This document shows positions 16,539 through 35,000 of a stretch of 64,000 bases of DNA, in pieces. Within the stretch, counting starts at the first letter, position 1; each line of letters starts with the position of its first letter. The DNA lies in the NCBI RefSeq assembly GCF_000153305.1, contig NZ_CH724108.1, forward strand, positions 186,036-250,035. Direction: 5' to 3'. The translations under genes were made by a program, and so were the position numbers. Under the pieces are notes generated by a model. The model was given only the letters and a program-made list of their open reading frames with translations, ran no database searches and had not been told where the DNA came from. This DNA is from Oceanicola granulosus HTCC2516. GTDB lineage: Bacteria; Pseudomonadota; Alphaproteobacteria; Rhodobacterales; Rhodobacteraceae.

Positions 16539-18317
16539 CTAGAAGCTCTCCGCGTCGAGCGCCATCACCGGCTCGGCCCCGGTCTCGATCCGCGCCAGGT
16601 GAGTGGCGACCATCGGCAGCTGGCGGGCCATGTAGTAGCGCCCCGTCGCGACCTTCGCCTCGTAGAACGCCCTGTCGCCCTCGCCGGCGGCGAGCGCGGC
16701 GCGGGCGGCCTGCGCCATCTGCGCCCACATGAAGCCGACCGAGACGTGGCCCATCATGTGCAGGAAGTCGTAGCTCCCGGCGAGCGCGTTCTCGGGCGCC
16801 GTCGCGCCTTGCTGCATGAAGTACATGCCCGCCTGCTGGAGCTGCTTGGACGCCGTCTTGAGCGGCTCGACGAAGGCGGCGTCGAAGTCGGGGTCGCCCG
16901 CCGCCTCGCGGCACCAGGTCTTGATCAGCTCGAAGTACGCCATGATGTACTTGCCACCGCCCGCCCCGAGCTTGCGACCGACGAGGTCGAGCGCCTGCAC
17001 GCCGTTGGTGCCCTCGTAGATCATGGTGATCCGCGCGTCCCGCACGAACTGCTCGACGCCCGTCTCCCGCACGAAGCCGGCGCCGCCGAAGGTCTGCTGG
17101 GCGAGCACGGTCGTCTCGAAGCCCTTGTCGGTCAGGAAGCCCTTGATGACCGGCGTGAGCAGCGAGACCAGCCCCTCGGCGTCGGCATCCCGGCCGCGGT
17201 GGGCGCGGTCGATCAGCGAGGCGCCCCAGAGCAGGAAGGCGCGTCCGCCCTCGACGAAGGCCTTCTGGTCCATCAGGTTGCGGCGCACGTCGGGGTGGAC
17301 GATGATCGGGTCGGCGGGCCGCTCGGGCGCGGCGGCGCCGGCCAGCGCGCGGCCCTGAAGGCGGTCGCGGGCGAAGGCGGCGGCGTTCTCGTAGGCGACG
17401 GCGGCCTGCGCCACGCCCTGCAGGCCGACGCCGATGCGGGCCTCGTTCATCATCGTGAACATCGCCCGCATGCCGGCGTTCTCCTCGCCGAGCAGGTAGC
17501 CCGTGGCGCCGTCGTGGTTGATGACGCAGGTGGCGTTGCCGTGGAAGCCCATCTTGTGCTCGACCCCGCCGCAGCTCACCGCGTTGCGCGGGCCCGGCCG
17601 GCCGTCGTCGTCTAGCAGGAACTTCGGCACGATGAACAGCGACAGCCCGCGCGTCCCCTCGGGCGCGCCGGGGATGCGGGCCAGCACGAGGTGGACGATG
17701 TTCTCGGTGAGGTCGTGTTCGCCGGCCGAGATCCAGATCTTCTGCCCCGTGATCCGGTAGCTGCCGTCGCCGGCGGGCTCGGCCCTGGTGCGGATCAGCC
17801 CGAGATCGGTGCCGCATTGCGGCTCGGTGAGGTTCATCGTCCCCGACCATTGGCCCGAGATCATGTTGGGCAGCCACGTCGTCTTCTGGGCGTCGGTGCC
17901 GTGGGCGTGGATCGTGGAATAGGCCGCGTGGGTGAGGCCCTGGTAGGTGTTGAAGGCCATGTTGGCCGACAGGAACATCTCACCGGTGGCGCAATTCATC
18001 AGGTAGGGCATGCCTTGGCCGCCGTACTCGGGGTCGGCGTCGAGGCCCATCCAGCCGCCCTCGCGCATCCGGGCGTAGGCGTCGGCGAAGCCGGGGGGCG
18101 TGCGCACGACGCCGTTCTCGAAGGTGCAGCCCACCGCGTCGCCGGCCTGGTTCAGCGGTGCCAGCACGCCCGCCGCGAGCTTGCCGGATTCGTCGAGGAT
18201 CGCGCGTGTGGTGTCGCGGTCGAGCTCGTCGTAGCCGGGGATGTCGAGGCTGCCGACCTTGAGCAGGTCGTGCAGCACGAAGTCGAGATCGCGGGCGGGC
18301 GGCGTGTAGGTCGGCAT
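16539..18317 (-). CDS. Acyl-CoA dehydrogenase (about 590-residue AcdA/DmdC-like type)
   Basis: A 592-residue FAD enzyme that forms the 2,3-double bond in acyl-CoA. It is longer than classical 380-residue enzymes and has the extra C-terminal region seen in the family that includes DmdC (3-methylmercaptopropionyl-CoA dehydrogenase). Landmarks are [19 protein letters not shown] (FAD/substrate region), [20 protein letters not shown] and [13 protein letters not shown] with the probable catalytic Glu near residue 436. Fatty acyl-CoA versus DMSP-derived substrate cannot be decided from sequence reading. Its gene follows a MerR regulator by 37 nt. Confidence 0.9.
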
Positions 18318-18354: not shown

Positions 18355-18750
18355 TCAGGCCACGGCCGGCTTCACGTTCAGTTTGTCGAGCTCACGGGCT
18401 CCCCACTCGAGCTGCACTTTCAGCTCGCGGATCGCTTCGTTCAAGTCGTCACGCTGCGTCTCCATCTCGCGCAGGTGCTGCTGGGCGATCTCGTAGGTGC
18501 GCACGAGCTGGGTCTCGCGTTCGCCCGCGTCGTAGAGGTCGAGCAGCTGGCGGATCTCCTCGAGGCTGAAGCCGAAGCGCTTGCCGCGCAGGATCAGCTT
18601 GAGCCGGGCGCGGTCGCGCCGGGTGAACAGCCGTTTCTGCCCCTGCCGGATCGGGGCGAGCAGCTCCTTGGCCTCGTAGAAGCGAAGCGTCCGCGGCGTC
18701 ACTTCGAACGTGTCGCACATCTCGCGGATCGTCATCGTGTCTTCGGTCAT
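18355..18750 (-). CDS. MerR-family regulator, probably of the acyl-CoA dehydrogenase operon
   Basis: A 131-residue MerR protein started at the ATG at 18750 ([11 protein letters not shown]). The winged-helix N-terminus contains [35 protein letters not shown], followed by a long coiled-coil dimerisation helix (about residues 80-120). No metal-binding cysteines are present, as expected for the LiuR/AcdR-like subgroup that controls acyl-CoA metabolism. It directly precedes the acyl-CoA dehydrogenase gene and is a close paralogue of the regulator at 19008-19373. Confidence 0.9.
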
Positions 18751-18859
18751 TCTCGTTGCCTCATCTTGTCCGTGAGCGGAATTACGGAAGGGCAAGTGAC
18801 CAAGCGGGACGCGCGACACAAGCGAAGCTTTCGCGAGCGTGAAGTCGACGCGGCGTCAC

Positions 18860-18873
18860 TCGTCAATTGACGA
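18860..18873. promoter_or_regulatory. Perfect palindrome TCGTCAATTGACGA, candidate MerR operator
   Basis: A 14-bp perfect dyad in the 257-bp gap between the two merR genes, about 110 nt upstream of the acyl-CoA dehydrogenase-linked regulator. Position and symmetry suit autoregulation by one of the MerR proteins; the core CGTCAA resembles operators known for LiuR-like regulators, but this is inference. Confidence 0.45.
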
Positions 18874-19007
18874 AACGACAGGAAAATCCCGGTCGAATGC
18901 TTGGCAATTTTGTTATGCCCTAGCGGAAGGGCGCTGTCGGCGCGCATCTCTCGCTAGCCGCGAGGCGGCCGCGGCGCATGCCCGCGCGGGTTGCTGGCGC
19001 GCTCGCG

Positions 19008-19373
19008 TCAGCCGAGGGTGCCGACGGTCTCGTCGCGCAGCTCCTTCAGCTCGCGGATCGTGTCCTCGATCTGGCGCCGCTGCTCCTCCAGCTCCTTGAG
19101 CTGGCGGTCGGCGCGGACGATCCAGTCGCGCATCTGCGCCTCGGTGCCCTCGTGCTCGTAGATCTGCAGCCACTGGCGGATCTCCTCGAGCGGGAAGCCG
19201 AACTTGCGCCCGCGCAGGATGAGCGTCATCCGCGCGAACTCGCGCGGGCCGTAGAATCGCGACCGGCCCTCGCGCTCGGGCGAAAGCAGTTCGATGTACT
19301 CGTAGTAGCGCAGCGTCCTCGGGGTGACGTCGAAACGCTCGCACATCTCCTTGAAACTGAGCCGTTGAGTCAT
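19008..19373 (-). CDS. Second MerR-family regulator, paralogue of the first
   Basis: A 121-residue MerR protein (MTQRLSFKEMCERFDVTPRTL...) with a strong AGGAGG five nt before the ATG. The DNA-binding half (TPRTLRYYEYIELLSPEREGRSRFYGPREFARM) and the LILRGRKFGFPLEEIRQWL segment are strongly similar to the adjacent MerR, pointing to tandem duplication. The C-terminal half is a predicted coiled coil and lacks cysteines. Target unknown; beta-oxidation genes are the obvious candidates. Confidence 0.9.
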   Translation of the reverse strand: MTQRLSFKEMCERFDVTPRTLRYYEYIELLSPEREGRSRFYGPREFARMTLILRGRKFGFPLEEIRQWLQIYEHEGTEAQMRDWIVRADRQLKELEEQRRQIEDTIRELKELRDETVGTLG

Positions 19374-19431: not shown

Positions 19432-20577
19432 CTAGTTCATGAAGCCGGGCGCGAGGAAGTAGAAGGCGTAGGCGACGATGAACGCCGGGATGGCGGAGAA
19501 CAGCGTCGCCCACACCGCCGCCCTGGGGTTGAGCGCGATGGCGGGGAACAGCGCGTCGCCGTCGTTGGAGATGGCGTTGCCGATCAGGCCCGCGAAGGGC
19601 ACGAGGCCGTTGAGGTAGAGCGTGCAGACCAGCACCTGCGGGCCGCAGCCCGGCACGAAGCCGATCAGGATCGCGATCAGCGGCAGCAGCGGGGCGACGG
19701 TGGCGAACATCGCCTCGAGGTCGAGCCCGCCGTAGGCCACGGCGTAGTCGTAGAGCAGGAAGGCGCCGATCACCCAGACCGAGATGAACGCCGTCTCCTC
19801 CGCCATGCGGGTGACGGGGTGGTCGGCGGCGTTGGTCATCGCGGCGATGCGCGAGGTGGCCCAGATGAACAGCCCGATGGCGGTGCCGGTGAGGGCGATG
19901 GCGGTCTCGGTCTCGCCGCCGATGAGCGCGGCGGTGTCGACGGCGGCGAGCTGGGCGATGCCGAGGGCGAGGCCGGGCATGGCGCAGGCGAGGTACGCCC
20001 AGTCGCGCAGGCGGACCTTGCCGATGCGCGGCGCGAGGTCGCAGGCGGCGCTGGGGTTGGCCACGAGGAACTTCGGGCCGAAGGCGTCGATGAGCCAGCC
20101 CGAGACGATGCCCACGGCGAAGGACAGCGGCAGTACCACGGCCGCGGCGTCGGGGCGGGTGGCGATCAGCAGGAAGGCGGCGTCGCCCATGGTGGCGGTC
20201 AGCGTCGCCACCACCGCGCCGAAGCCGACGTTGCCCGAGGAATACGCGGCCACCACCACGACCGCGCCGCCGCAGCCCGGCGTCGCGCCGAGCAGGGCGG
20301 CCATCGGCACCTGCCAGCCGCGCGCGGTGCGCAGCTTGGCGCCAATCTCGAAGTTGAAGACGCGCTCGGCGCCGTAGAACAGCAGCAGCGTCGCCGCGAC
20401 GAAGGCGGAGACGGCGATGTAGGCGTCGGTCATCAGCTCGCGGGTCAGCGCGCCGAGGCCGCCGGGCGCCGCGGCCAGCACCAGCAGCAGGCTCGCCACC
20501 GCCAGCCGGCGGAGCCGGAACGGCCCGGAGCGGCCGGTTGCGGCGAGCGCGACGGTCGGGTCGGTGGTGGCGGTCAT
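19432..20577 (-). CDS. Putative 10-TM manganese/heavy-metal transporter (ArsP_2-like)
   Basis: A 381-residue polytopic membrane protein with about ten hydrophobic segments in two related halves. Each half carries a proline-glycine-cysteine motif: ATPGCGGAVVV (about residue 98) and GFVPGCGPQVLVC (about residue 307), a pattern I associate with the putative 10TM heavy-metal exporter family. The start ATG at 20577 follows GGGGAG. Directly upstream is a near-ideal promoter with a palindrome over the start region, suggesting a metal-responsive Fur-family repressor. Direction of transport and metal are not certain. Confidence 0.65.
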   Translation of the reverse strand: MTATTDPTVALAATGRSGPFRLRRLAVASLLLVLAAAPGGLGALTRELMTDAYIAVSAFVAATLLLFYGAERVFNFEIGAKLRTARGWQVPMAALLGATPGCGGAVVVVAAYSSGNVGFGAVVATLTATMGDAAFLLIATRPDAAAVVLPLSFAVGIVSGWLIDAFGPKFLVANPSAACDLAPRIGKVRLRDWAYLACAMPGLALGIAQLAAVDTAALIGGETETAIALTGTAIGLFIWATSRIAAMTNAADHPVTRMAEETAFISVWVIGAFLLYDYAVAYGGLDLEAMFATVAPLLPLIAILIGFVPGCGPQVLVCTLYLNGLVPFAGLIGNAISNDGDALFPAIALNPRAAVWATLFSAIPAFIVAYAFYFLAPGFMN

Positions 20578-20593: not shown

Positions 20594-20620
20594 TGCAATT
20601 GCGAATAATTCGCAATTGCA
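20594..20620. promoter_or_regulatory. 27-bp perfect palindromic operator of the putative metal transporter
   Basis: Twelve-base arms TGCAATTGCGAA and TTCGCAATTGCA are separated by three bases. The palindrome begins immediately downstream of the -10 element of the minus-strand promoter, so a bound protein would cover the transcription start. Shape and AT-rich centre resemble Fur/Mur/Zur-type boxes; the exact regulator is inferred. Confidence 0.7.
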
Positions 20621-20652
20621 CATATAGCACTTGCACCGGCTCTGGCAAGTGC
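20621..20652 (-). promoter_or_regulatory. Sigma70-type promoter of the putative metal transporter
   Basis: On the minus strand TTGCCA (20643-20648) and TATATG (20621-20626) are separated by 16 nt. GCACTTGC (20627-20634) and GCAAGTGC (20645-20652) form a second inverted repeat across the spacer, possibly another regulator site. The divergent thioesterase gene starts at 20685. Confidence 0.55.
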
Positions 20653-20684: not shown

Positions 20685-21131
20685 ATGCCGCAAGACACCG
20701 ACAAGCTCGCGCTGGCGCGCCAGTTCCTCGCGGCGCTGCCCCATGCCCGCGCGCTGGGAATGGAGCTCACCGCGCTGGGGGCGGGGACGGCGGTGATCGA
20801 GATGCCCTACGACACCCGCTTCGTCGGCGACCCGGAGACCGGCGTGATCCACGGCGGCGCGGTGTCGGCGCTGATGGACACCTGCAGCGGCACCGCGGTG
20901 ATGGCGCATCCGAGCGGGCCGGGGAGCACCGCGACGCTCGACCTGCGCATCGACTACATGCGCGCCGCGACGCCTGGCCGAACCATCGTCGCCGAGGCCG
21001 AATGCTACCACATCACCCGCTCCGTCGCCTTCGTGCGCGCCGTCGCCCGCGACGGTGACGCGGAGCGGCCGGTGGCGACGGCGGCCGGGGCCTTCACCGT
21101 CGACGGGCTGCGCGGCGAGGTGGCGACGTGA
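20685..21131 (+). CDS. PaaI-type hotdog thioesterase
   Basis: A 148-residue hotdog-fold protein. The segment [21 protein letters not shown] is the PaaI/4HBT signature in which the HGG loop and following acidic residue position the thioester. [12 protein letters not shown] forms the next conserved strand. It probably hydrolyses acyl- or aryl-CoA in the cytoplasm. The stop overlaps the GTG start of a second hotdog gene (GTGA), suggesting a heteromeric or coupled pair. Confidence 0.85.
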
Positions 21132-21625
21132 GGCCGCGTCCGGAGCCGGTGCAGGTCGTCAAGCAGCGCCGCGATGCCGCGCTCGACGCGCTGGTGGCGC
21201 ACAGCCCCTACGTCCGCTTCCTCGGCATCCGCTTCGACCGGCGCGGCGACGAGCTGACGGCGCTGCTGCCCTACGCCGACCACCTGATCGGCAACCCGGC
21301 GCTGCCGGCGATCCACGGCGGCGTGACGGCGGCGTTCCTCGAGACGACGGCGCTGGTGGTGCTGGCCTGGAGCCTGATGTGGGAGCGCATGGAGACCGGC
21401 CCGCCGCCGGAGCCGCCCGAGCCGCCGCGCTGGCCCAAGACCATCGACTTCACCGTCGACTACCTGCGCACCGGCCTGCCGCGCGACGCCTACGCCCGCG
21501 CCCGGGTCAACCGCTCGGGGCGGCGCTACGCGAGCGTCCATGTCGAGGGCTGGCAGGACAACCGGGAGCGGCTCTTCGCGCAGGCGACGGGGCACTTCCT
21601 GATGCCGCCGCCCGCGGGCGATTGA
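21128..21625 (+). CDS. Second PaaI-type hotdog thioesterase
   Basis: A 165-residue protein starting at GTG 21128, overlapping the upstream stop. [19 protein letters not shown] carries the HGG signature, and [22 protein letters not shown] the next strands; it has an insertion rich in Pro and Glu (about residues 95-105) absent from its neighbour. Likely an acyl-CoA thioesterase acting with the preceding gene product. The following 87-nt gap holds a 10-codon mini-ORF that overlaps the MATE start. Confidence 0.83.
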
Positions 21626-21712: not shown

Positions 21713-23056
21713 ATGAGCGCCGCCGCGCCCGATCCGGCGCCGCCGCCCGAGCGGGCGGTGACGCACCGGCGCGTGCTCGCCATCGCGCTGCCCATCGTGC
21801 TGTCCAACGCCACGGTGCCGATCCTCGGGATCGTCGACACCGGCGTCGTCGGCCAGCTCGGCGCGGCGGCCCCGATCGGCGCGGTCGGCATCGGCGCGAT
21901 CATCCTGACGGCGATCTACTGGGTGTTCGGCTTCCTGCGCATGGGCACCGCCGGGCTCACCTCGCAGGCCGAGGGCCGGGGCGAGGCGGGCGAGGTCGCG
22001 GCGCTGCTGAGCCGGGTGCTGATCGTCGGCGCGGCGGCGGGGGCGGGGATCATCCTGCTGCAATGGCCGCTCTTCGCCGGCGCCTTCCTCGTCTCCCCCG
22101 CGAGCGAGGAGGTCGAGACGCTGGCGCGCGGCTACATGGGCATCCGGGTCTGGTCGTCGCCGGCGGCGATCTCGCTCTACGGCATCACCGGCTGGCTCAT
22201 CGCGCTGGAGCGGACGCGGGCGGTGCTGGCGATCCAGCTCTGGATGAACGGCCTCAACATCGTCCTCGACCTTCTGTTCGTGCTCGGCTTCGGCTGGGGC
22301 GTCAACGGCGTCGCCGTGGCCACCTTCCTCGCCGAATGGTCGGGCCTCGGCCTCGGCCTGTGGCTCTGCCGCGACGCCTTCGCCCGCCCGGCCTGGCGCG
22401 ACTGGCCGCGGGTGTTCGACCGGGCGCGGCTCAAGCGGATGGCACAGGTCAATTCGGACATCCTGATCCGCTCGGTGCTGCTGCAGGCGATCTTCGTCAG
22501 CTTCCTGCTGTTCGGCTCGGGGATGGGCGACGTGCAGCTGGCGGCCAACCAGATCCTGCTGCAGTTCCTCTACGTGACCTCCTACGCGCTCGACGGCTTC
22601 GCCTTCGCGGCCGAGGCGCTGGTGGGGCAGGCGCTGGGCGCGCGCCGCCGGGCGGCGCTGCGGCGGGGGGCGCTGCTGACGTCGGCCTGGGCGGCGGGGA
22701 TCTGCCTCGTGCTGGCGCTGGTGTTCGCGCTGGCGGGCGGCGCGGTGATCGACGTGCTGACCACGGCGCCCGAGGTGCGCGCGGCGGCGCGGGGCTACCT
22801 CGTCTACATGGTCGCCGCGCCCGTCGTCGGCGTCGCCGCCTGGATGTTCGACGGCATCTTCATCGGCGCCACCCGCACCGGCGACATGCGCGACATGATG
22901 GTCGTCTCCGCCGCCACCTACTTCGCCGCGATCTACCCGCTGATGTGGGCCTTCGGCAATCACGGTCTCTGGCTCGGCCTGCTGCTCAGCTTCGCCGTCC
23001 GCGGCCTCACCCTCGCCCTGCGCTACCCCGCCCTGGAGCGGGAGGCGGAGGCCTAG
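21713..23056 (+). CDS. MATE-family (DinF-like) multidrug/toxin efflux transporter
   Basis: A 447-residue membrane protein with twelve hydrophobic segments typical of the MATE fold. Features include LPIVLSNATVPILGIVDTGVVGQLG in TM1 and [20 protein letters not shown] in the second half, as in the DinF branch. It would export cationic or toxic compounds using a Na+ or H+ gradient. The start ATG at 21713 has no good ribosome site of its own but overlaps the stop of a short upstream ORF (ATGA). Its stop codon TAG shares the palindrome CTAG with the stop of the convergent giant gene. Confidence 0.9.
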   Translation: MSAAAPDPAPPPERAVTHRRVLAIALPIVLSNATVPILGIVDTGVVGQLGAAAPIGAVGIGAIILTAIYWVFGFLRMGTAGLTSQAEGRGEAGEVAALLSRVLIVGAAAGAGIILLQWPLFAGAFLVSPASEEVETLARGYMGIRVWSSPAAISLYGITGWLIALERTRAVLAIQLWMNGLNIVLDLLFVLGFGWGVNGVAVATFLAEWSGLGLGLWLCRDAFARPAWRDWPRVFDRARLKRMAQVNSDILIRSVLLQAIFVSFLLFGSGMGDVQLAANQILLQFLYVTSYALDGFAFAAEALVGQALGARRRAALRRGALLTSAWAAGICLVLALVFALAGGAVIDVLTTAPEVRAAARGYLVYMVAAPVVGVAAWMFDGIFIGATRTGDMRDMMVVSAATYFAAIYPLMWAFGNHGLWLGLLLSFAVRGLTLALRYPALEREAEA

Positions 23057-26000
23057 GGGAGGACGGGCAGGACGCAGGTCGCTTCGTAGGAAGCGCCTTC
23101 CCCAAGGACGGACAGGATGATGTTGGTGTTGGTCGCATGGAGGTCCGCTTCAGTTCCAGCGATCCTATAAGTTCCGTTATTGTTGAACAGCGTGGCGGAA
23201 CCGATAGTCGTCATCGAGTTGTTCGAGACGTTGACGCAGATCGCCCCGTTGGTGGTGTGCAGATAGATACTGTCAGTTACCGTGCTTGGGACAATCGTAT
23301 TGTCGGTGATGGTGGCGTTCAGGGTCGTGCCCGCTTTCCCAAAGACGTCGATGGTTTCGAGGAATTCCGTAGTGATGTCGTTGTTGTCTATCTCCAGGCG
23401 CGCGTCGCTGTTTCCGGTGAAGGTGAACGACATGGCGGTGGCAGGAGACGGTGCCGACGGACCGCTGATCGTCGTGTTCCGGACAATGATGTCCGTGCCG
23501 TTCTGCTGGTTGTCGCTGTTGCCGAAGACGTCGATCGCGCGCCCGCCGGCGACGCTGATCGAAGCCCCGTCCACGAGAGCAACCAGCGACGAGCGGCTTC
23601 CCTCGTTGCGCAGGCGCAGGCCGGCCCCGGTGAGGCTGCCTCCGCTGAGCTCGAAGCCGAGCGTGGCGGTGTCCTGGACCAGCGTTTCCACCAGCCAGGG
23701 GGCACTGTTGGAGCGGCTGAGCGTGACGCCGCTGAGCGTCAAGTCGAGATCCGACTGGCCTCGCGCCTTGGCGAAGATCCCGCCGATCGAACTGTTCGCC
23801 GATGTCAGGGAGCCGCCGGTGACAGTGACACCGAGCGACGCGGTGCCTGCCGTGTCCGCGTAGATCGCGTACTGGCCGTTGCTGCCGAAGCTCGACACGT
23901 CGACGCCGGAAATCGTCAGGACATCCGGCCCGCTGCTGCCCGCGATACCCTTCACGACATAGATCGCGTTGCCGTTCGTCTCCTCGAAGCTGACGTTGCT
24001 GATCGACGAGCTGCCGAACGGGCTCACCAGCTTGAACATCTCGTCGCCGACGTAGATGCCGGACGTGGTCGCGCCGTTGATCGTCGCGTTGCTGTAGTCG
24101 AGCCCCGTCACGTTCATCGCATGAAGCTGGCTGCCTGTGCCGAAGCTCGTGCTGATGCCGTTGTCGGTCAGGTCGAGCTGGTCGAAGCTCGGGCCGTAGG
24201 TGTTCGTCAGCAGGATCGCCTGCGCGCCGGTCTGCCGGATCAGGCCGCCCGAGCCGTTGTTCGCGGACCCGGCGTCGCCGGTGACGGAGAAGCTGCCGCT
24301 GGTGCCGGTGTTCTCGAGAACGATGGCGTGGGTGCCGCCGGTCTGGTTGATCTGCTGGAACGTGACGCCGCCGGTGCCGAACGTCGCGTTCTTGATGTCG
24401 ACGGCCCGGCCCGTCGACGAGACGTCGATGGTGCTGCCCGCGCCCGTCGCGGTCAGGGTGGCGTTGCTGGACGCGCTCAGGGCGGTGCCCGTGCTGACGT
24501 CGAGGTCGAGACCGCCGGTCAGGGCGACGGCCCCGCCGCCGGTGATGTCGATCGCGTCGTTGGCGCCGGAATTGGCGCTGATCGGGCCGTTGATCGTGAC
24601 CTGGCCGCCGTTGAGGCTCGCCACGAGGCCCGACAGGCCGGACGTGGTGACGCTGCCGTTGAAGGTGAAGGTCGGTGCCGCGGCGGCGTTGCTGCCGATG
24701 TGGATGCCCGCGGACCCGCCGGTGCTGTTCACCGACGAGCCGCTGGCGAACGTGACGGTGCCGGTCGAACCGCCGGCGACGTCGATCCGCGAGCCCGATC
24801 CGGAGAGCGTGACGGGGGAGGCGAAGCTGGCAGTCCCGGTGAAGGGGACGCTCGACACGCCGATGGCGATCCGTCCGCCCCCGGTGTTGGTGATCGTCTC
24901 GCCGAAGGTGATGTTCCCCGTCCCGCTCATCCGCAGGAACGCCGCCGGAGCGCTCGACGTGATGGCCGCGTCGATCGTGACGGCCGCCACGTTGTACAGC
25001 GACGCGACCGCGGCATCGGCGAAGGTCGTGGACATGGTCCCGTTGCCGATCCGGATGGTGCCGGTCTGATTGTTGATGACGAAGTCCGTCGCCTTCAGCT
25101 CGTCGCCGGCCCCGGTCGCGATGTCGAGGTTGGCGGAGCCGGACATCAACTTGACGGCGCCACCGACGAGCCGGTTGACGTCGAGCGTGAGCGCCGTGGC
25201 GCTGGCCAGGCTCAGCGACGTGATCTGCCCGGTCTGCGGCGCTTGCAGATCGTGGATCGTGAGGCTGCCGCCGCTCGCGCCCTCCACCAGCAGCGCCGTC
25301 GCCCGGCCGCTCGCGGTCATCACGAGCGGCTGGTTCGGCGCGCCGAGGACGAGGTGCTCCCCCGTCGCCAGGTCGGCGACCTTGATGGCCTCGGCAGCGG
25401 TCTTCAGGATCACGTTCGTGATGCTGTTGTTGCCGGCCGCGGTCACGGTCGTGGCGTTGCCGAAGACCTGGTCGTTGTCCAGGGTGGCCGCGCCGTTGCC
25501 CGGATCGGTGACCGTGACCGTCCCGCCACCGGTCACGCCGAGGAAGTTGCTCGGCACGGCGGTGGTCACCGAGATGCTGTTGTTGTTGCCGAAGCCGTCG
25601 ATGTTCTGGCCGTTCTCGAGCGTGAAGCCGCCCGAGCGCACGATGTCCGCCCCGTCGTCGATGAGCACGAAGGTGACGCCGCTGCCGGTGATCGCGTCGG
25701 CGGTGGCGATGCTGGCGCGGTTGTCGACGTCGCGGCCCGAGCCGTCGCCGGTCGCGGTCGCGGCGACGAACACCTTCGAGCCGTCGCTCGGCAGGACGAG
25801 CCGCGGGGTGGCGCCGAAGTCGACGTCGCGGAAGTCGTAGCTGCCGCCCGCCGGCGCCGCCGGCAGGTCGAGCTGGATCGTGGCCCCGATCCCGGAAACC
25901 TTGTCCACGTCGCCTTCGGCGTCGCCGTACTGGAAGGCCAGGTCGGTCGCCGCCGAGGTGCGCACGCCGACCGCATAGGTCCCGCCGATGTCGGCGCTCT

Positions 26001-29000
26001 GCCCGTCCGCGGCGCCGACGCTGACGGTCCCGCTGCCGGTGGCGCCGGAGAGATCGATGCCGACGGTGTCGGCGATGAGGCGGGCTCCCCCGGAAAGGTC
26101 GAGCGACCCGATGGTGATGTCGTCGTTGACGGTGGCGCCGGCGAGGTCGAGGCCGACGGTCCCGTCCCGGCTGAACTGGTTGCTCATGATCAGCGCGCCG
26201 ATGTCGATCGGACGGTTGACGATGCCCGTGATGCGCACCCCGCTGGAGACCGGCAGCGCGGCATTGACGGTGGCGTCGTCGACCTCGTCCGCCGGCCAGA
26301 GCACCAGTTGGTTGATGTCGACCGTTCCTGCGGAGTCGAGGATGACGCCTTCCTCCAGCGTCAGCTTGATGTCGGCGGTGCCGGTGACGGTGAAGCTGCC
26401 GGTGTTGTCGCGCAGGTGCAGACCGACCGTCGGGTGGCCGCTGGTTTCTCCCGCGCCGCCACCGGACGTTCCGGTCGAGAAGCCCCCCATCGTCACCGCG
26501 AGGGCGGAGTCGGCGATGGTGAGGGCGGTGGTGGTGGTGCGGGTCGTGCCCGAGATCGTCTCCGGGGCGATGAGGCGCATCTCGTTGGTGACCGACAGGC
26601 TGCCCCATAGGTTCCGGAGCAGCACGGGGCGCGTGGTATCGATCCCGCTGAAGGTCGCGTTCAATGTCGTGCCGGCGCCGGACCCGATGATGTCGATCCC
26701 GCCGCCATCGACGAAGCCACCGACGATGTTGAGGGTGAAGTGCTCCGCATCGACCTGGAACGCTTGCCCGCTCGTCCGCGCCCCGACCTCAGCGAAGCGG
26801 AGGCTGCCGCCGGTGGTGGGCTGAAGGATCCGCAGGAAATTCTCCGCCACGCCGGTCAGCACGCCCGACGTTCCGCCATCGACCGCCTGCATCCCGACGG
26901 TCTCGGGCTCGCTGTCGAAGGTGACCCCCTCGAAATGGAAGCCGTCGTTGAACCCGGCGACGCTGTCGCTGCCCCGCAGGCTGTTGTTGCGCAGGCTGGT
27001 GACGGTGAGCGCGCCGGTGCCGGAGTTGACGGCGTGGATCGCCGCTTCGTCGGTCTCGAAAGTGGAGTTCTGGACGTTCAGCGTGAGTCTGTCGTCATCC
27101 TCGACGAGGGCGAGGATGCCGTACTGCGCGCCGGGCGCCGAGGGCGCCTGGGTGATGTCGAGCAGGCCGAGTCCGACGGCGACGGACCGGGTCTGCGTCA
27201 CGTCCCCCTGGGCGATCCTGATGCCGGAGACGGCCGTGGTCGCGGTCTGGACGATGGTGGCCGTGGTCAAGTTGAAGGTGCCGTCGACGTTGCTCAGCGA
27301 GATCGCGTCCGAGGTGCCGGCCGTCTGCGTCACCTCGTCGAGCGTCACGTCGATGGTGCCCGTCACGCTGAAGGCGGTGTTCGTCGTGGTCGCGATCCTG
27401 TTTGCGCTGGAGCCGTTGATGGTCAGCGTGCCGTCGCTGACCACGCCGTGCCTGCCGCCGGACGAGATGTCGATGCCGCCGCTGAACGTGGCCTGCCCGC
27501 GCGTGACGTTGATCCCGCCGGCGCCGACGGTGGTCAGCGAGCCGGTGAATGTCGCGTTCCCGTCCGTGAGGGAGACGGCGTCGCTCGTTCCGGCGTGGTC
27601 GATCGTTCCTGCGTAGGTGAGGACGTGCGATCCCAAAGTGACGAGGGCGGAGTTGCCGCTTCCGGCGATCGAGCTTGCGGCGTCGAACGTGACGGTGGCG
27701 GTGTTGCCGGAGATGTAGAGGCCGGTTGCGGCGTTGCGGATGTCCACGTTCGAGCCGGTGATCGTCCCCCCGGCGCCGGTGAGGTCGAGGCCGCCGCCGT
27801 CGAGGCTGACGTCGGTCAGGGCCGTGCTGCCGGTGGTGTTGTGCAGCTCGATCCCGCCGGTGCCGGTGATGCCCGACAGGGTGCTGTCGGCGGCGTTGAG
27901 CAGGATGTCCCTGCCGTTGCCGGAGAAGTCCACGTCGCGGATGGTGGTGCGCGTCGAGGGGGTGATCTCGATGGCGGTGCCGGTGAAGTTCCTGACATCG
28001 AGCGTCTCGAGCAGCGTGTCGCTCGCGCCGCCCGCGTCGACGACGGCCCCCGCTGCCGACGAGCTGCCGTCGAAGGTCAGCCCGGCGATCCGGTTGCGCT
28101 CGCTGGCGAGGGTCACGACCGTCGCGCCCGAGGTGGTGGTCAGCGTCGCGGCGCCCCGGCTGTCGGGGGCGGCGATGGTGTAGGCGTTGTCGGGCAGCAG
28201 GATGTTGGCCGGCCCGTTCAGACGCACGTTGACCGCCTGCGAGCCGCCCGCGCCGTCGCCGAAGCCGAGCAGCTGCACGCCGTTCAGCAGGGTGAAGGTG
28301 TTGTCGCCGTTGGTCGCGCCGGCGCTGATCGTGCCGCCGTCGTCGACGGCGATCACCACGTCGTTGACGGCGAGCAGCGGCTCGATGTCGCCGAGCCGCG
28401 CGGCGTTGGTGGCATCGCGACCCGATCCGTCGCTGCCGAAGGCGTCGCCGCCCTGGGAGCTGACCCAGTAGACCTCGCCCACCCCGAAGCCGGTGCCGGG
28501 CCCGTTGGCGAAGGCGACGTCCTGGAAATCATAGCTGCCCGAGGCCGGGGCGCTGCCGGCGTCGATGGCGACGGTCGCGGCGATGCTGGAGCCCTGGTCG
28601 ACGCCGGTCTCGCCGTCGCCGAACACGAAGGCGAGGTCGGTGCCGGTGCCGAGGCGCACACCCGTGGCGAAGCCCGCGCCGATGCTGGCGCTCGCGCCGG
28701 AGGCGTCGCTGTCGCCGAGGGTGAGGCTGCCGCCGCCGGTCGCGGCGGCGAGGTTGACGGCGATGGTGTCGGCGCCGGTGGAGGTGGCGTCGAAGTCGGT
28801 GGCGATGACGCTGCCGGAGAAGCCGCTGAGCACGGCGAAGGCCGTCTGGTTATCGCGGGTGACGGCGATATCGAGGTCCTCGAAGGTGACGTCGAGCGCC
28901 CCGGGCGCCGCCAGCATGATGCCGCCCACGGTGGACGAGCCGCCGGTGGTGATGTCGACGCTGCCGAACCTGAGCGCGCCGTCGTTGCCGGTGTAGTTGC

Positions 29001-32000
29001 CGATGTTCAGCGCGGTCTGCCCGGCGCCGCTGACGGTGAGGTCGCGGATGTCGATGGTGCCGGTGTTGCCGGAGAGCAGGACGCCGTTGGCGCCGGCGCC
29101 GGTCACGGTGGCCGGGCCGACGATGTCGATGGCGGCGCTGTTGTCGCGCAGCTCGATGCCGGTGCCGGTGGTGTCGGAGATAGTCACCGGCGCGTTGCCC
29201 GCGCCGAGGGTGATCCCGCTGCCGCTCGCCCCGACGATCTCGATGCCGTGCTCGCCGCCGCTCGCGGTGACGCTGCCGATGGCGAGCCCGGGTGCGCCGA
29301 TGGCGGTGTCGACGAGGTTCAGCGCCAGCCCGTTCGTCGCGCTCAGGCTGTTGGCGCCGCCGGTCGGCACGCTGGCGGAGACGGTGCCGCCCGCGCTGAC
29401 CTTCAGGGCGTCGCCGCCGCTCGCGGTGATGTCGAGGCCGCCGGTGAAGCTCGTCACGGTGCCGGTGTTGGTGTCGATCTCGATCCCGTTGCTTCCGCTC
29501 ACGTCCGCCGTGATCCGGCCGCCGAAGGTGACGGCACCGCCGGTGTTGTTGGCCACGGAGAGCGCCGGCGCACCGCCGGTCTGGGAGATCGTGCCGTCGT
29601 AGGTGACGGTCGCGCCGCTGTTGCCGGTGATGCGGACCGCCTCGGTCGGATTGGTGATGGTGGCGCCGTCGCCGAACCCGAACGTGCCGTCCGAATTGCG
29701 GATCAGGAGGCCCGCGCCGCCGCTCAGGCCCATCGAGCCGAGCAGATTGTAGGTGCCGCTCGCTTGCGCGAAGCGCACCCCGGCGCCGTCGGAGGCGGTG
29801 ATCGTGAAGCCGGCCTCGAAGTCGAGCGTGCCGGAGTGGTCGGCGACGTCGAGGATGTAGGCGAGGCCGGTCGAGGTGGACTGGCTCAACGTGCCGGCGA
29901 AACTGGCGTTCACCTGTCCCGAGACTTCGAGCGTCGCCCCCTGGGCGCCGCTGAAGGTGGTATCGTCGGTGAAGGTGAGCAGGGTGGCGCCCGTCCCATC
30001 GAGCACCGCGGCGCGGCTGGTGCCGGAAATCGCGATCCGGTCGTGGTCCTCGCCGCCGAAGGTGACGGGCCGGGTGCTGCCCGTCATGAGCAGGCCCGTG
30101 CTCGCGCCGCTGATGTCGAGCTGGTCGGCGTCGAAGCTGCCGGAGGCGTCGGTGCGCAGGTTGAGCGCGAGGCCGGTCATGAAGCCGCCGGTGATGTCGA
30201 CGTCCGCCAGCGTGAGCTGGGCGGAGCTGTCGGCGGCGTTGATGCCGGTGGCGTTGGAGCCGGCGGAATGCGCCACGACGAGCGCCCCCTCGGCGCTGCC
30301 CAGCCGGATCGCGCCGGTGGCGGTCGTGGCGTCGATGGCCGCCCCGTTCGAGCCGGACGTGTACTCGATGCGCACGTTGGCGACGCTGTTCTCGCCGGCC
30401 AGCGACAAGACCGAGTTGCCCGAGAGGCTGGTGTTGATGAGCGTCGCCGCACCGTTGCCGGTCGGGTCGCTGATCGTGCCCTCCGCGCCCGGCACGCCGG
30501 TGAACGATTCGGGGATGCGCAGGCCGCCCGTCACCTCGTTGCCGTTGCCGAAGCCGTCGATGTGCTGGCCCGCGTCGAGCCTGAAGCCGCTCCGGTCGTT
30601 GATCGGGCTGCCGTCGTTGACGAGCACGAAGGTCAGCACGCCGCTCATGGCGTCGGCCTGGTCGATGGTGGTGAGGTTCCACTGGTCGCGGCCCGAGCCG
30701 TCGCCCGTCGGGTTGGCGGCGACGAAGACGACGGGGGCGGAGGGGAACACGTTGGTCGGGGTGCGGCTGACGCCGGCCCGGTGGGTCCGGGTGAAGTCGA
30801 CGTCGGTGAAGTCGTAGCTGCCGCCGAGCGGCGCGTTCTCGGCGAAGATCTGCACCGGGCTGGCGAGGACCGAATCGCGGCTCGTCGCGTCGCCGTCGCC
30901 GTAGGTGAAGTTGATGTTGGTCGCGCTGTCGAAGGCGACGCCGACATTGACGTTGGAGGTGACGGTCGCGCCGGCGGTCGCGCCGAGCTGGACTAGGGCG
31001 GTGCTGCCGGTGACGGCGCCGGCGAGGTCGACCGCGACGATGCCGCTGCCGCCGGTCTTGCCGCTCGCGGTGAAGGTCTGCGTGCTCAGCGTGCCGTCGA
31101 GGGTGACGCCCGCGAGGTCCAGGCCGGTGCTGTCGTCGGTCGGGAGCTGGAGCCGGAGATCGGAGAAGCTCACGCTGCCGTCGATGCTGCCGGTGGTCGA
31201 GCCGACAGCCGAACCGCCGCTCGCGGTGACGAAGGTCGAGCCGCCGAAGGTGACGGTGCCGATTGCGCCGTTCAGCACGATCCCGGTCTTGCCCGTCCCG
31301 ACACCGTTGATGCCCATGCCGGCGGTCGTGACACTCGACGTGGCGCTGTCGGCGATCTCGAACGTGCCGCCGACGAGGGAGGCGTGGGTGCCGATGTTGA
31401 CGGTCGTGTTCGCCAGGCCGCTCAGCACGACGCCGCGGCCGGCGCCCGTGCTGCTCTGGTCGTTGATCGGGCCGCTGACGGTGATGGTGCCGCCGGTGGT
31501 GTCGGAGATCTCCAGTGCCGCCTCGTCGGTCGCGTTGCCGAGGGTGGCGCCGATGGTGTGATCTGCGCCTCCGGAGATGTGCAAGCTGCCGATCGCGCCG
31601 CGCTGCAGCTGCACATCGCCGCTCACGGGCGTCAGCGTCGCGTCGTCGGCGGTGACGGAGGCGAGCGTGATGTTTCCGCTCGTCCCGATCAGCCCGAGGC
31701 TGCCGTCGAGCGTGCCGGTGGTGGTGCTGAACGACAGCCCCGCCGACCCGCCGACCAGCACCGCGGTCCCCGCGGCCCAGACCTGAAGGTCGGCGATCCG
31801 GAGCGCACCGGTGCTCTGGGATCCGGGAGCGAGGATGAAGAAGCCCTCGCCGACCTTGTCCGTTTCGCTGCCGAAGACGAACGTCCCGGCGTCGACACTC
31901 TGGGCCCCGTCCGTCGACGGATCGGCGTCGAGGTGCACGCCGCTGAAGATGGCGTCCAGGACGCTGCTGCCGATCGTGAGGTCGCCGATCTCCGTCACGG

Positions 32001-35000
32001 TCAGGGCGGAGGTGTCGGCGGTCTCGTTGCTCAGGGCGAGGCCCAGGTGCCCGGCGGCGATGGTCAGATCGCCGAGCGCGAGGGTCAGCGTGCCGCCCGT
32101 GGTCTCCGCCACGATCCCCGCCATCTCGCTGGTGGTCGGGCCGGGATCCTGCGTGACGACGATGTCGGCCAGCGTCAGGTCGAGGTCGCGCCCGACGACC
32201 GTCTGCGCGATCTCGATGCTGTCGACGTCGTCCGGGCCGTTCGTCGTCTCGAGGGTGCCGCCGAGGATCGAGAGGCTGCCGTCGAGATCGAACAGCCGCA
32301 CGGAGCCGAGGCCGACATTGGTCGCCGAGACCGCGTCGAGCGTCACGTCCACGTCGATGTCGCGCAGGTCGAGCGCCACGGCGTCGCCGGTGACGACGGA
32401 GCCGCCGCCGATGGCCAGGTCGAACGCGTCGGTGCCCGACGCGAGGATGCCGGGGTCGTCGCCGGAGGCGATATCGACCGACCCCACCGTGAGCGCGCCC
32501 GTGGTGTCGCTCACCAGGAGGCCGGTGCCGCCGGCGGTGGTCAGGCTCGTGACGCCGAAGCCGTCCGCGCCGATGGTGACTCCGTCGAGCGTCAGGCCGG
32601 TCGCGTCCACCGACGACAGGTGCGCCACGCCGGTGGATGTGAGCGTGACGGGGCCCGTGGCCTTGAAGGCCTCCAGGTCCTCGCTGGCCACCGACAGCGG
32701 GCCGGTGAAGGCGACGCTGACCGGATCGCTCTGCGAGATCAGCACCCCCGACCGGCCCACGACGTCGATCTCGCCACCGAACGTCACCGAGCCGCCCTTC
32801 CAGTCGAAGATGCCGATGCCGCCGCCGAGGGACGCGTCGGTCTTCGTGATCGTGCCGTCGAAGGTGACGTCGCCCGAGCCATCGATGAGCGAGACGACGT
32901 TGATGCTCGACTCGCTGGCCGAGCTGTCGGCGTCGAACTGTGCCGCGCCGGTCGATCGCCGGAGGTTGATGCCGGTCCACTGGTCGGCGATGTCGAGGTC
33001 GATGCCGCGGAGGGCCGAGGAACTCTGGAAGGCCTCCAGGCCGGTGCTGAAGGCGCCGCCGTCCTCGATGTCCACGTCGCGGATCGTGACCGCTCCGGCC
33101 GATCCGTCGAGGCGGATCCCCGTGCTCATGTCGCTGGCGATCTTCAGCGAGCCGATCGTGTGGTCGCCCGTCGTGGTCGAGACGACCGTGCCGATTCCCG
33201 ACACCAGCGTCGCGTCGTTCTGGGTCAGCGTGCCGCCGGTGCCGCCGAGGGTGCCGCGGATGTTGACCGGCTGGTTCGGGTTGAGCACCACGCTGTTGCC
33301 GTTGCTCAGGCCGTAGAGGCTCTGGCCCTGCTTCAGCGCGAAGCCCCTCAGGTTGTCGGAACCGGCCCCGGCGACGCTGATCTCGCCGCTCGCGTCGTGG
33401 GCGATGAGCACGAAGGTCTGCCCGTCGTTGTCCAGCGCCAGCGCCTCGTCGACGGAAATCGTGACCACGTCGCTCGACAGCCCGTGGGTGCCGGCGGCGA
33501 TGAGCCCGCCGGTCTCGCTGACGAGGGTGAGGTCGCTGACGACAGGGAAGTTCGACAGGTCGCGCGCGCCGACGGTGACGTCGGAGAAGTCGAAGAACGA
33601 GGCGGCGTGGGTGCCGTCGGGGGCGTCGATGACGGCCGCGTCGGCCTGGCCGTTGACGTCGATCACGGAGCCCATGTCGACGGTGCTCTCGCCGTCGCCG
33701 AACGTGAACTGGACCAGCGCGGTCTCGTCGATGACGACGCCGCGGTGGAGCCCTTCGATCCGGCTCGAGGCGCCGCCGGCGTCGGTGTCGCCGAGCCGGA
33801 CGTCCCGGTTGCCCTGCAGCCCGGTGAGGTCGATGCCCACCGAGTTGGTCGAGCTGTCGGGCCCGGTGATCTCGAGTGCGGTGAGGCCGGTGGCCCCGGT
33901 GAGGGTGGCCCCGGCGAGGTCGAACCCGACCTGTCCGGCCCCCGCGCCGACCTCGGCGATGGTGACGCTGCCGAAGGTCATCGCGTCGTTGGTGCCGGAG
34001 ACCTCCACGCCGCGCAGGCCGTCGCCGTCGGCGAGGGTGATGTCCACGTCGCCGAAGGTGACGCCGCCCGCGTTGCCGGCGAGGTCGATGCCGATGCCGC
34101 TGTTGTCGGCGAGCGTGACGGGGGCGGTGATGGCGACGTCGCCGGCGTTGCCGGTCACGGTGATGCCGCTGCCGCTGTTGCCGGTGATGGCGAGCCCGGT
34201 GCCGCCGATGCCGACCGTCGCGCCCTCGGCGACGTCGGTGACGCGCAGGCCGCCGTCGGCGCTGCCGGTGATCGTGGCGTCGCCGAGGTCGACGGTGAGG
34301 TCGCCGCCGTCGATCCGCACGCCCTCCGCGCCGCTGTCGGTGATCGTGAGCGTGTCGATGCGCAGGACGGCCGACTCCCCCGTGAGGGCGGCGCCGGTGA
34401 CCCCGTCGAGGCCGATCCCCGCGCCGCTGCCGCCGCTGGCGGCGACGAAGTCGAGGGTGACGGTGCCGAGGGTCGTGTCCGTCAGGCTGAGCGCGGCGGC
34501 GCCGGTCGTGTCGATGCCGCCCCCCGCGATGGAGAGCGCGGCGCTGTTGTCGCGCGCGACGAGTCCGGGCGTGTCGGCGGTGAAGATCTCGACGCTGTCG
34601 AAGCCGATGCTGCCGCCGCTGTTGCCGGTGATCGTGATGCCGCCGCCGGTGGCGGGGTCGAGCGCATCGCCGAGCGCGACGTCGCCGAAGCCGAGCGTGC
34701 TGTCGGTGTTGTCCGAGACGAGCAGCCCGCCGTCCGTGCCCGCGCCGAAGAAGGCGCCGCCGAAGTCGAGCGTCGCGCCGTCGTTGCCGGTGATCGTCAG
34801 CAGCCGTCCGTCGCCGACATGGGTGACGACGCCGTCGAAGTCGACCGTGGCGCTGCTGTTGGTGACGCTGATCGTGTCGCCGTCGTCGGTGGCGACGAGC
34901 GCGTCACGGATCGTGTAGTGGCCGCTGCCCCCGGTGATCTCGAGGCGCGACAGGACGACGCTCGCGAAGGCGACGTCCCCGTCGACGTTCGACAGCTCGA

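Follow-up and report, generated by a model that had tools for sequence, protein, structure and literature searches.

Which regulator recognises a perfectly symmetric DNA element in front of a metal-transporter gene of Oceanicola granulosus HTCC2516, which metal does it sense, and in which direction does the transporter move its cargo? The element lies in a stretch of 64,000 nucleotides that was analysed as a whole (“the window”). On the minus strand, a probable promoter, composed of the -35 box TTGCCA (20648-20643), a 16-nt spacer and the -10 box TATATG (20626-20621), is followed by the palindrome TGCAATTGCGAATAATTCGCAATTGCA (20620-20594), by a ribosome-binding-like GGGGAG (20591-20586; 8 nt before the start codon) and by the ATG at 20577 of a gene (19432-20577) for a 381-residue protein of family PF11449, which we take to be the MntX family. 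The palindrome reads TGCAATTGCGAAT-A-ATTCGCAATTGCA, with perfect arms of 13+1+13, and is the same site that the initial annotation had counted as 12+3+12 with a 3-nt centre; as described there, it begins right after the promoter, the -10 box ending at 20621. It contains a Fur-type inverted repeat with a GAATnATTC core, and the conserved operator core within 20594-20620 reads ATTGCGAATTATTCGCAA on the minus strand.

Within the window, the palindrome is the sole place with perfect arms of at least 12 nt and a spacer of 0-10 nt. When up to three mismatches are allowed, the 27-mer is expected 0.00 times (100 window shuffles), and its inner 25-mer occurs at one place only in the 4.05-Mb genome. By itself, the symmetry is only moderately improbable, because palindromes with arms of at least 12 nt and spacers of 0-10 nt arose in 15 of 60 window shuffles (arms of 13 with a spacer of 0-1 in 0 of 60); the real evidence is conservation in relatives. 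For this comparison, 29 homologous loci were taken, their genomes being titled Rhodobacteraceae or by genera such as Loktanella and Yoonia. Of these loci, 27 retain the operator core; it is missing in L025 and L030, whose best sites score 9 and 10 as compared with at least 14 elsewhere (N scored as a match). A column table of 28 sequences, including the window, displays conservation of the -35, -10 and operator columns and none of the columns further downstream. In 12 of these 28 sites, an exact TGAGAAT precedes the centre and an exact TGCGAAT follows it, and ten of the other 16 deviate from this pair by one base, including the fully symmetric TGCGAAT/TGCGAAT of the window.

Since the palindrome is positioned at or just past the expected transcription start, it could also be conceived to act in the RNA, as the hairpin of a leader, and not as an operator in the DNA. 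Against this speak the relatives, which keep the operator core and lose the long perfect arms, the lack of any Rfam match at E ≤ 1 between 20400 and 20800, and the box of sitA genes, which is found 5′ of the likely -35 box (by eye) and would there be untranscribed; we therefore give the hairpin next to no credence.

To see the operator in its wider genomic context, a sequence model (R1) was derived from 27 PF11449 promoter operators only, leaving out L017, which is identical to L011, and 149 family genomes were scanned at E ≤ 0.1 per genome; the E-values are rough, and nominally about 15 chance matches are expected. In the window's own genome, R1 matches this operator only (E ≤ 10), and its matches across the family amount to 81 distinct sites in 72 of the 149 genomes. 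A site was assigned to a gene when located within 450 nt of a profile match, and the remaining 20 sites were classified by inspection: 8 precede SitA genes of subgroup 2, one lies at the thioesterase gene TE1 of a genome without PF11449 (L132), and 11 are without a recognised Mn gene. Altogether, 69 of the 81 sites precede SitA-type (49; 41 before subgroup 1 and 8 before subgroup 2), PF11449 (13) or Nramp (7) genes. For the 13 sites at PF11449, R1 is no independent witness, since the 149 genomes include the window's own and, probably, some of those used in training; the SitA and MntH matches, by contrast, constitute independent evidence for a Mn-uptake regulon, because R1 was trained on PF11449 promoters only.

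At E ≤ 0.1, an R1 site is absent from 28 of 64 SitA subgroup-1, 38 of 46 SitA subgroup-2 and 19 of 26 Nramp genomes. A looser re-count, confined to SitA genes, covered 20 of the 28 subgroup-1 and 20 of the 38 subgroup-2 SitA genes without an R1 site and asked for a box with at least 13 of 16 positions (TTGC or TTGA type) within 450 nt upstream. Such a box is present at 17/20 and 19/20 genes, respectively (36/40 together, hence missing at four), and was found in none of 40 equal stretches inside coding genes; R1 itself gives weak matches at many of the re-counted SitA genes. Among the PF11449 loci, 15 of 20 have an R1 site upstream; it is missing in G003, G010, G012, G034 and G115, the first four of which all possess Nramp. 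By eye, degenerate operator look-alikes, GTGAGAATGCTTCGCAA and AATGAGAATGACTTGCAAG, are discernible at L142 (G034) and L144 (G003), respectively.

Two of the unassigned sites are at uvrB (L133; L124 by eye) and one precedes an aminotransferase gene (L127), and at L130 (G140:C2:18850-18866) a perfect palindrome, GTTGAGAATTATTCTCAAC, has no recognised Mn gene adjoining. In L037, the operator site is situated between sitA and a FUR-family gene. Several sitA loci, including L039, L048 and L050, carry two boxes (by eye), one 5′ of a TTGAC -35 box and one in the spacer, reaching the -10 box.

Whether the genes behind these sites encode Mn importers was judged from profile scores and gene order. Both Nramp proteins scanned at R1 sites pass the NCBIfam MntH cut-off. 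None of the five SitA proteins scanned (three of subgroup 1, two of subgroup 2) passes an NCBIfam cut-off, the best model for subgroup 1 being the zinc protein AztC. The sitABCD-like order of binding protein, ATPase, permease and permease is found in all three loci read, with the domains confirmed in two of two, and the one ATPase scanned (SitA subgroup 2) passes the NCBIfam manganese/iron transporter cut-off.

Recurrence of the motif in front of SitA-type and MntH genes lends comparative support to a repressor site of the Fur family at the metal-transporter promoter, as initially proposed, and allows it to be narrowed to a probable Mur (Mn) operator. According to PMC5575495, sitABCD and mntH of Rhizobium leguminosarum are under Mn-responsive repression by Mur. 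We consider it highly probable that the palindrome is the operator of the Mn-sensing repressor Mur, placed before a Mn-importing PF11449 gene.

Three Fur-family proteins are encoded in the genome, namely a Fur/Mur-type protein (L001), Irr (L002) and a Zur-like protein (L064); the first two were listed by a FUR profile search, which missed the Zur-like one. The candidate Mur gene (G000:C6:760514-760870) clearly belongs to the Fur family, within which NCBIfam draws no line between Mur and Fur; its product is nearest to the ferric uptake regulators, at 98.1 bits and below the cut-off of 146. This proximity would fit a variant in which the same protein binds, with iron rather than manganese as the main signal or cargo, and according to PMC3413700, Fur/Mur of Rhodobacter sphaeroides also affects iron metabolism. 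The variant is unlikely, however, given that the targets are of the Mn-import type (MntH over cut-off, sitABCD-like gene order) and that those R1-site neighbours which were looked at included no recognised iron-uptake gene.

Irr scores 208.9 bits in NCBIfam, above its cut-off of 150, and Irr boxes also have a GAAnnnTTC-like centre, so that binding of Irr, with the gene answering to iron or haem, has to be weighed. The assignable R1 sites, however, precede Mn importers, and for R. sphaeroides, PMC3413700 reports that Irr did not bind upstream of sitA, in a region predicted to be targeted by Mur; we judge the involvement of Irr very unlikely. A search for a VIT1-type mbfA for Irr-box comparison gave no match in the genome. 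The Zur-like protein (122.6 bits; cut-off 167) is encoded beside a ZnuA-type gene, which codes for the single ZnuA-family protein of the genome and adjoins, besides the zur-like gene, an apparent ABC ATPase gene. That the operator is a zinc-responsive Zur site is nevertheless exceedingly improbable, as the zur-znuA intergenic region contains a different palindromic stretch, GTTACGTTATAACATC, without a GAATnATTC core.

Returning to Mur, the following course of events is probable. When Mn(II) is sufficient, Mur would bind TTGCGAAT-n-ATTCGCAA. As the operator immediately follows the -10 box and includes the likely transcription start, bound Mur would block RNA polymerase at the mntX-type gene. 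Upon a drop in Mn, Mur would leave the operator and the PF11449 protein would be made, which would then import Mn(II) and probably be the main dedicated Mn importer of the cell.

The names under which the transporter is filed point the other way. It matches PF11449 (ArsP_2) with 338.9 bits (Pfam gathering cut-off 32.5), the Pfam label of the family being “heavy-metal exporter”, and NF037962, “arsenic efflux protein”, with 227 bits (NCBIfam cut-off 100); the latter is a subfamily model, whose “arsenic efflux” name is not proof of function. No ars gene was found among the five neighbouring genes scanned against Pfam and NCBIfam. The two PGCG motifs noted in the initial annotation are indeed present, at residues 100-103 and 309-312, and the P, G and C of both are invariant across 27 aligned proteins. 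The AlphaFold model (pLDDT 81.4, pTM 0.78) comes closest to ArsB (10tp_A; VIA Z 14.2, rmsd 4.6, 283 residues, 12% identity), followed by a match with Z 11.6, in a list of ion-transporter-type and other transporter folds. Foldseek with the same model returned no match at E ≤ 0.001 (best E 0.024), and a sequence search for solved relatives gave none at E ≤ 1. The comparison suggests an ArsB-like fold, which says nothing on cargo or direction; as a predicted feature of a PF11449 protein, this fold is possibly new. A kinship with Vibrio MneA was considered and rejected, MneA being a TMEM165/UPF0016 protein.

A further line of evidence is the distribution of the transporter families over the 149 genomes. 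PF11449 occurs in 20 of them (in G012 in pieces only) and SitA in 110 (64 with subgroup 1, 46 with subgroup 2, no overlap). Only one PF11449 genome (G006) has SitA, as compared with 109 of the 129 others, which amounts to near-exclusion (Fisher p = 2.4e-12, or 1.4e-11 without G012, in a test that ignores shared ancestry). Nramp, found above cut-off in 26 genomes, six of them with PF11449, displays no such exclusion (p = 0.12), and seven genomes are without PF11449, SitA and Nramp. Profile searches of the window's genome found PF11449, no Nramp, and no SitA of either subgroup; in G065, of the same genus, SitA is present and PF11449 absent.

An exporter of Mn, arsenic or another metal, with a regulator that relieves repression or activates at high metal, would agree with the family names, with the nearest predicted fold being that of ArsB, and with the Vibrio parahaemolyticus mntX homologue VP1164, which, according to a 2026 paper (PMC13274385), is up about 12-fold with added Mn and also up on Cu excess and Zn limitation; the same paper raises the possibility that an MntX homologue is an exporter. 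The rise of VP1164 with Mn may reflect different regulation in Vibrio, and a common fold gives no transport direction. Furthermore, the place of the operator, immediately behind the -10 box, is a repressing one, the same box precedes importers, PF11449 and SitA hardly ever occur together, and the genome was found to have neither SitA nor Nramp. Export is thus quite unlikely. Rather, because the operator is common to importer types and PF11449 is nearly exclusive with SitA across the 149 genomes, import is the probable direction in this lineage, and the gene is most likely an mntX-type Mn importer despite its “exporter” and “arsenic efflux” names. Its meaning beyond this locus is that a transporter named an arsenic or heavy-metal exporter in the family libraries would have a likely function in Mn import, which also bears on a disagreement, given the export role considered for an MntX homologue in Vibrio.

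The genes around the transporter are conserved as well. Divergently, on the plus strand, the hotdog thioesterases TE1 (4HBT; 20685-21131) and TE2 (21128-21625) are followed by a MATE (DinF-like) transporter gene (21713-23056); downstream, on the minus strand, are two genes for MerR-family regulators, MerR1 (19008-19373) and MerR2 (18355-18819). The order MATE-TE2-TE1/PF11449/MerR1-MerR2 is almost constant in 29 named loci, with TE1, TE2 and MerR2 present in all 29 and MATE and MerR1 in 28; in G115, the PF11449 gene is located elsewhere. The two MerR-type genes (18355-19373) adjoin a gene for an acyl-CoA dehydrogenase (16539-18317, minus strand), possibly forming a fatty-acid or branched-chain regulator module. 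On the other side, at 23053-37035 (minus strand), an open frame of 4660 residues is predicted to encode a giant repetitive surface protein, with matches to an inverse-autotransporter beta domain and to a right-handed beta helix in its first 1000 residues.

In four of six genomes without PF11449 that were examined (G126, G007, G011 and G065, all four with SitA), TE1 directly adjoins MerR1; in the other two, G001 and G004, the neighbour is a MerR2-type gene. One of the four, G126, still keeps a weakened promoter and operator at TE1 (L132/L138; R1 16 bits), with the PF11449 gene absent and SitA present. This decayed operator suggests that G126 has lost its PF11449 gene, and such a scar in a SitA genome is possibly a new observation.

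A second inverted repeat, GCACTTGC-N10-GCAAGTGC (20627-20652), spans the promoter spacer as originally remarked, its arms at 20627-20634 and 20645-20652 being 8/8 complementary with 10 nt in between. The simple pattern TTGC-N10-GCAA is matched in 23 of 30 promoters. A role as second Mur box was rejected, as the pattern is devoid of the GAATnATTC centre that the spacer boxes of sitA have. At several loci, inspection by eye shows CTTGC(A/G) on the strand of the thioesterase genes, with an AATAA-like or AAATT-like hexamer 17 nt further on. Two genomes without PF11449, G126 and G007, likewise retain this pattern, the partner arm being decayed or lost there; in G011 and G065, which also lack PF11449, it is not clear by eye. 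Because the GAATnATTC centre is missing and the thioesterase-strand pattern is retained in G126 and G007, the second repeat can be read as, probably, two opposing -35 boxes, one of the mntX-type gene and one of the thioesterase gene (putatively CTTGCA, 20630-20635, plus strand), belonging to overlapping divergent promoters. For the window itself, the reading is weak: 17 nt past CTTGCA stands GTTCCT, a poor -10 box for the thioesterase gene.

A tentative and, in our estimate, rather doubtful extension is that the region of about 60 bp functions as a two-way switch between the overlapping promoters of the mntX-type gene and of the thioesterase-thioesterase-MATE genes. If it did, the -35 boxes would sit within each other's spacers, operator-bound Mur would close the Mn importer and thereby free the thioesterase promoter, and the Mn status would set expression of the thioesterases and of MATE opposite in sense to Mn import. 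The reading of the second repeat as opposing -35 boxes, in promoters that the transporter gene would share with the thioesterase gene, is possibly new; among the matches listed for MntX/Mur and PF11449/ArsP_2 in the open-licence literature, titles and abstract beginnings describe no overlap with a thioesterase promoter. The overlap would be a new detail that is open to testing.

Compared with known systems, the transporter may resemble the ArsB/ion-transporter superfamily (PDB 10tp) in its predicted fold (Z 14.2), but the identity is 12% and the cargo is not implied. The classical Fur box is built as 7-1-7, and the operator is akin to it as an inverted repeat of the TGAGAAT-n-ATTCTCA type; exactly this form, however, is found in one of the 28 sites, TGCGAAT half-sites dominate one side, and the linked genes are of the Mn-import type. 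With the sitABCD and mntH systems of R. leguminosarum, the locus would share the kind of regulator, and the same classes of target genes carry the motif in the family studied here; the arrangements differ in that sitA of this family has a box 5′ of the -35 box (by eye) and frequently another within the spacer, whereas the mntX-type gene has one box 3′ of the -10 box. Closest of all is Roseobacter mntX, which, following Green, Todd and Johnston in 2013 (ISME J), is reportedly preceded by Mur-responsive sequences in strains without sitABCD. Common to both are a single membrane transporter in Rhodobacterales, a Fur-type Mur box and the lack of SitABCD (19 of the 20 PF11449 genomes are without SitA); by this likeness, the arrangement of Mur box and mntX is already described for Roseobacters, and the gene is not new as a kind. 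What sets the present locus apart from Roseobacter mntX is a box that is symmetric over 27 bp, in a region that is apparently common with a divergent thioesterase promoter.
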